From the NCBI GenBank assembly GCA_003584895.1, contig QVQF01000119.1, positions 1 through 40,214 on the forward strand: 40,214 bases of DNA, in the 5' to 3' direction. Below the pieces are notes generated by a model. The model searched no databases. It worked only from the letters and a program-made list of their open reading frames with translations, and had not been told where the DNA came from. The stretch comes from Methylococcales bacterium (GTDB taxonomy: Bacteria > Pseudomonadota > Gammaproteobacteria > Methylococcales > Methylomonadaceae). Below, in pieces: positions 277 to 3,255 of this stretch (position 1 is its first letter; each line of letters starts with the position of its first letter). The position numbers and the translations under genes were made by a program.

Positions 277-570
277 CTATAGGTGGGTTTCTATATCCAT
301 TCGTTCGTGAAGGATACGAACTATTTCAATGAGATTTGCGTTAACTTCACGGAAGAAAATAATGTGCTTACCTACATTATATTTACGATAACCTATACGA
401 ATTTCGCTACAATCACGTCCTTTAAGGTGATCTGTCGCTAAAGAATAGAAAGATTTGTCGAGTTTGGTTAGATAAATATTTCTTTGGCGCTTTCCCCAAG
501 TGTTTTGGGTATAAATAGCAATAATTTTAAGATCAGATTTGGCTTTATTGGTGAGCTCAAATCCGGTCAT
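277..570 (-). CDS. parE: ParE/RelE-superfamily toxin
   Basis: A 97-residue protein with the ParE-toxin layout: an N-terminal helical part (ELTNKAKSDLKIIAIYTQNTW), then the basic beta-sheet segment around residues 55-90, including EIRIGYRKYNVGKHIIFF and the closing VRILHERMD. ParE toxins of this fold poison DNA gyrase, while RelE relatives cleave mRNA; pairing with a ParD-type antitoxin favours ParE. Its ATG shares one base with the stop codon of parD (TAATG), so it is probably translated by coupling from the antitoxin. Length is normal and no damage is visible. The substrate is inferred from the partner, not shown. Confidence 0.85.
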   Translation of the reverse strand: MTGFELTNKAKSDLKIIAIYTQNTWGKRQRNIYLTKLDKSFYSLATDHLKGRDCSEIRIGYRKYNVGKHIIFFREVNANLIEIVRILHERMDIETHL

Positions 571-815
571 TAGTTGACGCTTTCTTGGTCAATCTCTTTA
601 ATTAAACCTTTTAACGAATAATCGGCCCGACCGCTTTCTTCACCTTGTATTAGTGCTTTTTGTATAGCTGCTAATTTTAATTCTCTCTCTTCTAATAAAC
701 GTAATCCTGCCCTGACGGTTTCACTTGTCGATCCATATCGCCCATCATTAATTTGTTTGGCTATAAATTGCTCAAAGTGAGCACCGATGGACACACTTGT
801 GTTTTTTTGCGGCAT
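570..815 (-). CDS. parD: ParD-family antitoxin
   Basis: An 81-residue ribbon-helix-helix antitoxin beginning MPQKNTSVSIGAHFEQFIAK, followed by the ParD hallmark GRYGSTSETVRAGLRLLEERE at about residues 26-46. The acidic C-terminal tail would wrap the toxin. The start at 815 is preferred to the longer ORF start at 845 because GAGGGGAAAGG lies just upstream of it, and family members start right before the RHH strand. Antitoxin precedes toxin with a one-base overlap. ParD normally represses its own operon; the repeated decamer at 851-870 is a candidate binding site. Confidence 0.88.
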   Translation of the reverse strand: MPQKNTSVSIGAHFEQFIAKQINDGRYGSTSETVRAGLRLLEERELKLAAIQKALIQGEESGRADYSLKGLIKEIDQESVN

Positions 816-850
816 AACCTTTCCCCTCTTCTTAATAAGTACCAATAAAT

Positions 851-888: not shown

Positions 889-901
889 ATAAACCAGCAA
901 G

Positions 902-1542
902 GTCGAGTCGCCCGAGGGATCTTCCCCCTCAGGCTCTCACAGAACCGTACGTGAGACTCTCGCCTCATACGGCTCTTCATGTCCCTTGCAAATTACCAAG
1001 TTTGCGTAAATCTTTAGTTCTTCCCATTACTGGTTGACCAAAGTTCTATTTTGGACATGTCAGCCCCTTCGCTCCATTTCCATTACAGAAACTTCATCAC
1101 TACTACGAGCTGATCCGCCCCTGTGCTCTGCATTGGTACTCTCGCCTTGTGGGTTTTCCACTTGAGCTTCTCCCTTGACATCAGAACGACAGGTTCTCAT
1201 GTTCCGTATTAAAGCCTGTATTGAGTTCATGCCCCCTCTATGCCGGTTGCCGCTCCGCCCGTGTACCAGTTATCGTCGGAGCTTATCTCTGGCTAAGGCT
1301 AGAAACCAGATTTTGACAACATCATATACATTTCGACACCTCATCAGGGGTTCACTTGCGTTCATCTCCTCAATACGCACCTGACAGTTCTTTGACTGCC
1401 TTTTCCACAATCGCTCACGACCAGTGCTCTTAACAAAAGCCGCATTGGGTGGTTTAGTTCCGACTTCTGGTCGCCGAAACTGAGAGGCCTACTCTCATCT
1501 TTAATACAGCATGAAAGGCTTTCGCCTTTCTTCATGACACAC
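902..1542 (-). mobile_element. ORF-less group II intron
   Basis: A 641-nt group II ribozyme read on the minus strand, without a reverse transcriptase ORF. The 5' end is GTGTG at 1542-1538 (GUGYG consensus). A domain I hairpin with stem TCTGG/CCAGA exposes TAGCCT at 1301-1296, which pairs perfectly with the last six bases of the upstream exon, AGGCTA (1548-1543), as EBS1-IBS1. A short domain IV is closed by CATGTCC and GGACATG. Domain V is at 975-942. Domain VI has stem GCCTGAGGG/CCCTCGGGC, a bulged A at 908 and a 3' end in AC at 903-902. Removing 902-1542 restores the terminal sequence GGCTA-CTTGC of the surrounding palindromic element, which fixes both boundaries. Splicing or mobility would need a maturase supplied from elsewhere. 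No protein gene in this interval is credible. Confidence 0.85.
942..975 (-). ncRNA. Group II intron domain V
   Basis: A 34-nt hairpin beginning GAGCCGTATG and ending ACGTACGGTTC, with a GAGA-type loop region and the catalytic AGC triad near its 5' strand. Length and sequence agree with bacterial group II domain V. It is followed at once by domain VI. This is the strongest single marker that the surrounding 641 nt are a group II ribozyme and not a terminator cluster. Confidence 0.9.
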
Positions 1543-1624
1543 TAGCCTCGATGGAGTAACACGGAATCGAGGTTTTTTTGCAATGATTTCCTCGATTCCA
1601 CTGTGTTACATCGCGGCTACTTGC
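1543..1624. repeat. Palindromic element copy A, split by intron
   Basis: An ~87-bp imperfect palindrome. Its first five bases (GCAAG, 897-901) are separated from the rest by the intron. Rejoined, its ends are GCAAGTAGCC and GGCTACTTGC, a perfect 10-bp terminal inverted repeat. It contains TCGATGGAGTAACACGGAATCGA followed by a T7 run, which could act as a plus-strand terminator, and then a second inverted half. A second copy lies at 3173-3255. The organisation resembles REP/REPIN or a MITE. Bases 1625-1889 beyond it hold no recognisable gene. Confidence 0.8.
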
Positions 1625-1889: not shown

Positions 1890-2222
1890 CTAGGCATGAG
1901 TCGCTTCACCCAATACCTCAGTAGCCCATTGATTGAGGCTCTTACCAACAGATTTAGCCTTAATTATCGCCGCCGCATGGATTTCAGGCGGAATACGCAA
2001 CAACAGCTTGCCGTTGGCGGGTTTTTCTGGGGATTTTCCGACTTTAGCGCAAGTCTCTAGGTAGTCGTCAACGGCCTCCTCAAGCGCCAATCGCAGTTCG
2101 ACGACATTATCAGCATGAAAGCCGATAACATCGTTAATGCCCAACAATCTTCCTACCAAGATATTGTCTCGGTCGTCGAAATCAATACGGGCGGCATAGC
2201 CTTTATAGGTCAAGGTGTTCAT
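1890..2222 (-). CDS. hicB: HicB-family antitoxin
   Basis: A 110-residue antitoxin. The N-terminal HicB domain has the degraded RNase H-like pattern: YKGYAARIDFDDRDNILVGRLLGI, then the HADNVVELRLALEEAVDDYLE segment. The C-terminal DNA-binding segment LRIPPEIHAAAIIKAKSVGKSLNQW is typical of HicB proteins. Its ATG overlaps the stop of the upstream hicA reading frame (ATGA), so the pair was built for translational coupling. HicB neutralises HicA and represses the operon. Because hicA carries an amber codon here, hicB is probably an antitoxin without a working cognate toxin at this locus, and coupled translation from hicA would stop early. Confidence 0.85.
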   Translation of the reverse strand: MNTLTYKGYAARIDFDDRDNILVGRLLGINDVIGFHADNVVELRLALEEAVDDYLETCAKVGKSPEKPANGKLLLRIPPEIHAAAIIKAKSVGKSLNQWATEVLGEATHA

Positions 2223-2650: not shown

Positions 2651-2941
2651 ATGATGATAAAATTTGAGTGGGATGCCAACAAGGCGCTGACTAATCAGAA
2701 AAAACACGGTGTTTCTTTTGAGGAAGCGAAGTCCGTTTTCTATGATGACTTTGCTGTGCAATTCTATGATGATGAGAATTCCGGAGAAGAACATCGTTTT
2801 TTGATGCTCGGTTTTAGTTGTGAATCCAGAATGCTTCTTGTCTGTCACTGTGAACGAGAATCAGGTAATACGATCAGAATAATATCATCTCGTAAAGCAA
2901 CTAAATCTGAATGTAGTCATTACAAAGGTAACGTGTCATGA
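2651..2941 (+). CDS. brnT: BrnT-family toxin
   Basis: A 96-residue BrnT ribonuclease toxin. The N-terminus IKFEWDANKALTNQKKHGVSFEEA is the family signature (W-D..K...N..KHG..F), followed by the SVFYDDFAVQFYDDENSGEEHRF strand region and the closing RIISSRKATKSE, where Arg and Lys/Ser residues conserved in the RelE-like active site occur. Two ATGs (2651, 2654) are possible; no ribosome-binding site precedes them and the promoter is very close, so translation may be leaderless from 2654. The stop overlaps the brnA start (ATGA). The toxin-first order is usual for brnTA. Appears intact. Confidence 0.88.
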   Translation: MMIKFEWDANKALTNQKKHGVSFEEAKSVFYDDFAVQFYDDENSGEEHRFLMLGFSCESRMLLVCHCERESGNTIRIISSRKATKSECSHYKGNVS

Positions 2942-3171: not shown

Positions 3172-3172
3172 A

Positions 3173-3255
3173 GCAAGTAGCCTCGATGAACGCAGTGAAA
3201 TCGGGGGGACTGAGATGTGTAAATCCTCGATTCCGCTTTGCCTCATCGAGACCTG
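3173..3255. repeat. Palindromic element copy B
   Basis: The second copy of the palindromic element found at 897-901 plus 1543-1624. It starts with GCAAGTAGCCTCGATG, has the internal AATCCTCGATTCC and the returning CTCATCGAG, but the far end (ACCTGAGC) has diverged from GGCTACTTGC. It lies two bases past the brnA stop codon and has no intron. Confidence 0.72.

Follow-up and report, generated by a model that had tools for sequence, protein, structure and literature searches.

On the minus strand of the window, the stretch of 40,214 nucleotides from a Methylococcales bacterium analysed here as a whole, positions 1542 to 902 are a complete group II intron that carries no reverse transcriptase (RT) and interrupts a short repeated palindrome. 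This element is probably a non-autonomous intron of an IIB-like, RmInt1-related type, which pairs with its exon through EBS1 and EBS2, borrows an RT in trans, is aimed by its EBS at palindrome ends, and was re-aimed by exchange of the EBS-bearing segment. The intron comprises the following parts:

902 to 1542, minus strand: ORF-less group II intron of 641 nt, with 5' GTGTG at 1542 and 3' end ..CGAC at 902 (Rfam RF01999 and RF00029)
1496 to 1379, minus strand: domain I core, Rfam RF01999 (group-II-D1D4-2), 95.4 bits, E 2e-18, gathering 36
978 to 1059, minus strand: domain IV (D4) without RT, 82 nt, a hairpin with stem CATGTCC...GGGACATG
942 to 975, minus strand: domain V (D5), 34 nt, starting at 975, from the RF00029 alignment
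902 to 938, minus strand: domain VI (D6), with A908 unpaired, 6 nt upstream of the intron's final nucleotide, from the RF00029 alignment and the consensus fold

The initial annotation had read this segment as a group II intron lacking an ORF and bounded by these two ends, which the two Rfam matches and the GTGTG at 1542 bear out. The RF00029 match (Intron_gpII, D5–D6), at 977-902 on the minus strand, scores 66.4 bits against a gathering value of 40, and its alignment, together with the fold, agrees with the 34-nt domain V (975-942) and the bulged A908 claimed beforehand. Group II introns begin with GTGYG, end with AY, and contain a bulged A in D6; the window intron fits all three rules, its 3' dinucleotide being AC at 903-902. 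D4 (1059-978), correctly described as free of an RT, is only 82 nt long and contains a reading frame of 14 codons whose significance is questionable. The 5' end is identical in a 99% copy in genome G033 and a 91% copy in G005, while the 3' end reads CGAC in G005 and CGGC in G033. A common D1–D6 fold of five ORF-less introns (the window, G033, G005, G132, and G147) has 194 pairs, and at 58 of these both partners have changed in one sequence or more. Judged from its sequence, the window intron is presumably able to splice. Splicing at this site may nevertheless not occur, because no promoter-like site was found over 780-1900 (0, compared with 2.0 in shuffles); terminator-like sites on the minus strand of the same interval were likewise not found.

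The host element and the sequences that face each other across the junction are:

1543 to 1624, minus strand: 5' exon, palindromic repeat GCAAGTAGCC...GGCTA, with inverted arms at 1543-1572 and 1590-1619 and related copies in the same genome
1543 to 1548, minus strand: IBS1 AGGCTA, the last six bases of the 5' exon
897 to 901, minus strand: 3' exon CTTGC, the last five bases of the palindrome, its first base C being the IBS3 position
1296 to 1301, minus strand: EBS1 loop TAGCCT, 6/6 pairs with exon AGGCTA (1548-1543), covarying with the exon across 13 introns
1327 to 1331, minus strand: EBS2 candidate ATGTA, 4/5 pairs with exon -9 to -13 (hand count), the top peak outside EBS1

Joined, the exon ends GGCTA and CTTGC give GGCTACTTGC, which mirrors the other end of the palindrome at 1615-1624, as expected from the excision proposed earlier. 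In other words, a repeat that starts with GCAAGTAGCC would end with GGCTACTTGC once the intron is excised, and excision would restore the repeated palindrome. The base after the intron is C in G033, G005, G082, and G132, and T in G147 and G146. In the window genome, the palindrome matches 24 stretches at E ≤ 10, the interrupted copy counted, several of which overlap or lie at chance level. Five uninterrupted copies (L005, L006, L007, L011, and L012) end with (G/A)GCT(A/G)CTTGCT and lack the intron; of the remaining displayed copies, some diverge past the C and some are partial. The element has the features of a REP or REPIN: GTAG..CTAC ends, a palindromic structure, multiple copies, and an intergenic position (by the window's ORF list). 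PF01797 (Y1 transposase / RAYT family) has one match in the window genome, with two in-frame TGA codons.

The 641-nt intron is present in a single copy in its own genome; the other close copies are the 99% one in G033 and the 91% one in G005. The initial annotation had named, as its own refuting case, other copies of the element that contain the 902-1542 sequence, and the five empty repeats of the same genome led to the rejection of that reading. The view that the palindromic element normally includes these 641 nt, in favour of which nothing was found, can be regarded as almost certainly wrong, given also that the 91% copy lies at an unrelated site in G005.

Several further features surround the interrupted repeat. 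A diverged second copy of the palindrome lies at 3172-3250, about 1.6 kb away. A ParD/ParE pair (277-845, minus strand) directly adjoins the intron downstream, an AT-rich palindrome (850-871) precedes parD, and a HicB-like gene (1890-2222, minus strand) and a BrnT toxin gene (2651-2941, plus strand) also lie within 3 kb, forming a small toxin–antitoxin cluster.

The pairing of EBS1 with the exon, pointed out in the initial annotation, is complete in the window copy and matched to the repeated palindrome. Over 13 introns, own-site EBS1–IBS1 pairing amounts to 75/78, a value reached by 0/20000 shuffles. Both sequences were sought in 24 sources, 14 of which fitted the motifs; 13 were used, with the disrupted copy G146b omitted (its EBS1, CGTAAC, forms 5/6 pairs with its exon by hand). 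The EBS1 of G041 and of G075:C78 were read later and stand outside the 75/78 total. The weakest pairings are those of G147 (4.5/6) and of G132, L031, and L075 (5.5 each). The combination of TAGCCT with exon AGGCTA is common to the window, G033, G078, and G082, and G041 also has TAGCCT, while G005 combines TAGTCC with GGACTA, and G139 combines GAGCGT with ACGCTC. In G075, whose palindromes (counted within the retrieved loci only) end differently, the only readable EBS1, TAGGGCG of C78, matches the CCGCCCTA sites of that genome; by hand, it fits the CGCCCTA ends of C4, C21, C49, and C75 fully and is off at one or two positions in C78, C175, and C231.

A scan of all positions ranked EBS1 and its overlapping registers first, followed by intron 212-216 against exon -9 to -13, a peak reached by 0/400 shuffles; the near-duplicate L031 was excluded from both the scan and the shuffle test. 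This putative EBS2 forms 4/5 pairs in the window copy and pairs poorly in some relatives. An earlier reading by eye of EBS2 as GATG/CATC was rejected, as the unbiased scan ranked ATGTA at 1331-1327 top instead. The palindrome 10-mer ATC[CG]AGGCTA occurs at 5/7 AGGCTA insertions versus 80/1507 AGGCTAC sites of six genomes (p 8e-6), a background of all such sites, intergenic or not, to which gene avoidance may contribute; with the background doubled, p is 2e-4. In the insertion count, the base after the junction is unread in three G078 copies and the G041 copy, and the G029 insertion, which follows AGGTTA, stands outside the seven although its genome is inside the background.

Similar sequence is found in 13/35 genomes of the genus (E 0.001), namely the 99% and 91% copies, an 87% 5' fragment in G029, and others that are shorter or more distant. 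A search with a 5'-end pattern gave 18 places in 10/311 genomes of the order, all within the window's family, and the reversed pattern gave 0 places in the same 311 genomes. The flanks of 11/18 were classed as GTAG/CTAC-type palindromes (G000, which is the window genome, G033, G029, G041, G082, G078:C77, G078:C117, and G075:C4, C21, C49, and C175); this REP-type label is our own reading of flanks and stem data rather than an automatic call, and the 18 sites are not all independent, since 7 are in G075 and 3 in G078, with G075:C4 and C175 lying in copies of one longer repeat. The other seven are G005, G139, G063, G075:C75, C78, and C231, and G078:C122, among which G063 (8 pairs) and G075:C78 (6 pairs) still have a stem close to the junction. 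Introns L027/L098, L029, L065/L092, L059, L080, and L060/L094 lie directly 3' of the ..GGCTA or ..GGTTA of such repeats, and the relatives in G078 and G075 are truncated by contig ends.

Independent copies thus share the palindrome placement in G033 (99% identical), G029, G041, G078, and G082, a recurrence that the match between the guide sequences of these relatives and the palindrome would explain. The earlier statement that the intron targets a repeated palindrome holds insofar as EBS1 is matched to the palindrome and 11/18 sites are of this class; it is too strong for the whole lineage, as 7/18 sites are not so classed. Similarly, several copies follow GGCTA in such repeats, but the 91% copy of G005 sits elsewhere with a different EBS1. 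That palindromes serve as safe landing sites can fairly be supposed. A second pattern, applied to named genomes, gave 11 contigs; five match the intron by BLAST, from Methylobacter sp. (3), Crenothrix polyspora, and a Methylococcaceae bacterium, and six without a match at E 1e-4 were set aside. A phage collection yielded two short partial matches.

Palindrome-sited introns that encode an RT occur in G082 and G078:C77. The former has a 432-codon RT frame that matches Pfam RVT_1, GIIM, and, weakly, RdRP_1, with no endonuclease domain among its Pfam matches. The RT of G078:C77, cut by a contig end, is of the same type (83% over 208 aa), and the RTs of introns in G002, G004, G010, and G019 are 48-60% identical to that of G082. 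The latter is also 55.6% identical over 414 aa to a group II RT of pSymB of Sinorhizobium meliloti, a match not assigned to a particular intron of that species. Intron 3' remnants followed by CTTGCTG are found in G033 and G026, the former preceded by an RT C-terminus 79% identical to that of G082 over 39 aa.

No RVT_1 match was obtained in the draft assemblies of the window genome and G033, nor in G041 and G063, so that, by this search, a related RT able to act on the intron is absent from G000 and G033, and the helper would be gone, unassembled, or foreign. The RT loci of the other three genomes with full-length ORF-less copies reach at most 34.9% (G005), 38.0% (G132), and 35.6% (G147) identity to the G082 RT, at least one locus having been compared per score group (3 groups of 6 matches in G005, 6 of 14 in G132, and 1 in G147). 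Accordingly, for none of the five full-length ORF-less copies is a close helper seen in the same genome. The description of the element as a likely trans-mobilised intron is not borne out by these assemblies; for the window intron, trans-mobilisation is only inferred.

The ORF-less D4 is common to three genera (g1, g16, and g17). It is nearly identical in the window, G033, G005, and G132, and diverged but recognisably related in G147; in bins 501-600, the window agrees with G132 at 94/100 positions and with G147 at 79/100, while intron 1-200 is only 65-69% identical among the three. Related intron 3' parts are also present in G146. RT introns are conserved in their 3' part as well (80-90% over 401-480, 79-87% over the final 82 nt), and for this reason only D4 clearly marks the ORF-less lineage. 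The G132 copy lies on plasmid CP157007.1 of Methylomonas sp. AM2-LC. A plain deletion derivative of the G082-type intron was rejected, since the D4 of G082 ends CAATCATTCA..TGAATGAT, against CATGTCC..GGGACATG here. The G033 copy (L171 / L027) has base changes in D6 and GC for AC at its 3' end, and may be splicing-dead for these reasons. On plasmid pS13 of Neochlamydia sp. S13 (NZ_AP017978.1, L147), a 68% match over 555 nt lies beside 49-codon genes at 645-nt spacing, and the seven matching places on this plasmid may be a tandem array of RT-less introns.

The window intron is not uniformly related to its closest relatives. Identity to G005 is 94% (1-200), 69% (201-300), 91% (301-400), 99% (401-480), and 98% (last 82 nt), whereas identity to the RT-encoding G078 intron is 84%, 98%, 88%, and 90% over the first four of these intervals. 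At informative sites, intron 201-300 is G078-like in 34/36; outside, 43/58 decided sites are G005-like and 15/58 G078-like, with 3 undecided (Fisher 1.7e-11 for a bin picked after the identities were known). A scan for bounds delimits the following segment, which holds both EBS2 and EBS1:

1231 to 1345, minus strand: recombinant EBS-bearing segment (intron 198-312), G078-like at 37/40 decided informative sites versus 12/54 outside

The G078 copy used for comparison shows a gap of 12 nt in D1 and is cut off by a contig end. A chimeric assembly is unlikely, because G033 shares the same mosaic at 99% and the G005 genome consists of 4 contigs. The window intron is, on this comparison, a mosaic whose EBS segment resembles the palindrome-sited RT intron of G078 and whose remainder mostly resembles the ORF-less intron of G005, which is aimed elsewhere.

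The probable course of events may be outlined as follows. The ORF-less lineage would have lost its RT, or never had one, and spread among methanotroph genera using an RT in trans. Intron RNA bound to the RT of a relative would have reverse-spliced between GGCTA and C (retrohoming), with the pairing of EBS1, and of EBS2, to the palindrome end directing insertion. Palindrome specificity would have been gained by swapping the portion of domain I that carries the EBS with a relative that encodes an RT and sits in a palindrome. The past helper, the retrohoming route, and the direction of this exchange are all suppositions of the model. Movement was recent, to judge from the 99% identity between the window and G033 copies, which occupy different sites in their respective genomes.

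Whether the window copy is now a dead relic, inserted once in the palindrome, deprived of its helper, and decaying intergenically where splicing is not needed, is close to an even question, with the balance slightly against it. Its single copy, the assembly devoid of an RVT_1 match, the interval 780-1900 without a promoter-like site, and the altered D6 and GC end of the 99% identical G033 copy are in keeping with decay; however, the window copy has kept its whole fold, with D5, D6, and the splice ends on either side, and the recent movement just mentioned speaks against a long-dead element. Present idleness and past trans-helped movement are, moreover, compatible. The palindromes could also be used merely because they are numerous, with any AGGCTA^C site accepted and counter-selection in genes sparing intergenic repeats. 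The palindrome is indeed multi-copy, and intergenic in the window, and EBS1 alone accounts for much of the specificity, but palindromes make up 80/1507 AGGCTAC sites and receive 5/7 insertions (gene avoidance not factored in), and this explanation is rather unlikely.

It is more doubtful still that insertion is directed to the hairpin as such, in the manner of group IIC introns at terminators or attC, with EBS1 pairing secondary. Stems of 7 or more pairs that stop 1-4 nt short of the junction occur at 8/18 sites versus 186/5948 overlapping control positions of the same loci, and L069 and L070 lie 10 nt past CCGC..GCGG hairpins. On the other hand, 10/18 sites fail the stem test, and G005 and G139 have no such stem although their EBS1 is fully paired. 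Group IIB introns combine six or seven EBS1 pairs with EBS2, a pattern that the 6-7 EBS1 pairs and the EBS2 peak found here resemble. Sequence and hairpin targeting are partly confounded, because the palindromes supply both, and the hairpin may contribute; the REP-classed sites G033, G029, G041, and G082 fail the strict test because their arms contain mismatches. A plain group IIC intron was rejected on EBS1 covariation and the non-hairpin sites.

The reading of a non-autonomous, re-aimed intron can be placed among known systems. The intron in the surface-layer gene of Clostridium tetani is C.te.I1. In the cited passages, C.te.I1 lacks an ORF and its bacterial host genome holds no related RT (PMC4424553), and the intron of the surface-layer gene splices (PMC3919590); the window intron differs in being intergenic and, by sequence alone, a candidate for splicing. 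A 2015 review describes ORF-less bacterial introns as rare and nearly always accompanied by related RTs, with one bacterial case without a related RT known to it, and gives the known kinds of target as homing sites, terminators, and attC (PMC4424553, passages cited). As presented there, group IIC (class C) introns share insertion next to hairpins, outside genes (PMC4424553); here, in contrast, EBS1 pairs 6-7 bases overlapping the 3' arm of the stem, an EBS2 peak exists, and some sites are hairpin-free. Group IIB introns near attC-like structures have been reported as well (PMC7923331, in part).

According to the consulted part of PMC5894124, RmInt1 and RmInt2 of S. meliloti (IIB3, class D) have an RT without an endonuclease domain, a domain that Pfam did not match in the RT of G082 either, and RmInt2 targets the inverted repeats of ISRm17. 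Both carry an RT and target insertion sequences, whereas the window intron has none and lies in a short intergenic palindrome. Another comparable system is TeI of Thermosynechococcus elongatus, described in PMC2882425 (in the portion cited) as ORF-less introns served by driver RTs in trans and spread through EBS divergence and retrohoming. In that species, the drivers occur in the same genome as the ORF-less introns, unlike the full-length ORF-less copies here, beside which no close RT is seen, and the recombination described involves the shuffling of exons between two introns rather than exchange of an EBS segment. In Pseudomonas putida KT2440, 2/9 group II intron copies lie in REP sequences according to one table line (PMC1525189), a precedent for REP insertion for which that table states neither intron type nor EBS analysis.

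As far as these sources extend, insertion in REPs (PMC1525189) and ORF-less introns with driver RTs (PMC2882425) are already known, while the ORF-less D4 across three genera and the window copy as a mosaic with an exchanged EBS segment are new points. A literature search, covering mostly titles and abstract starts and few subscription journals, returned no report of REP-targeting introns with matched EBS or of EBS-segment exchange. At title and abstract level, literature on group II introns with methanotrophs or REPIN, or on retrohoming with REP elements, contained nothing on such placement.

A broader possibility, put forward tentatively and with less than even confidence, is an intron lineage specialised on REP-type palindromes that switches between palindrome families through exchange or rewriting of its EBS module, with an RT-less sub-lineage, seen in several genera and a plasmid, that would owe its target specificity to autonomous relatives and use any RT it meets as its enzyme. 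If this were true, REP-type palindromes would be a further class of bacterial intron target besides homing sites, terminators, and attC. The introns offer a natural series in which a near-identical backbone carries different EBS1 sequences, each matching its site, with one exchange of a whole EBS segment. This is relevant to the survival of RT-less introns in genomes with no visible RT, and to the question of whether REP palindromes offer retroelements a refuge.

Other kinds of site were encountered among the relatives. At L069 and L070, introns of about 70% identity, CTTCGTCCAA and TTTTGTCCAA, respectively, come next after the CCGC..GCGG hairpins mentioned above, and the EBS1, TTGGAC, matches; these hairpin sites are perhaps attC-like. 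The RT-type relatives L030, L039, and L075 follow GA(C/T)GAAA in a transposase-like reading frame, which we take to be of the IS66 type, and EBS1 TTTCGT matches in L030 and L075. In genus g17, introns L138, L074, and L141 (G147, G143, and G139) follow a common GACC..AAAGCG motif, possibly a further repeat target.
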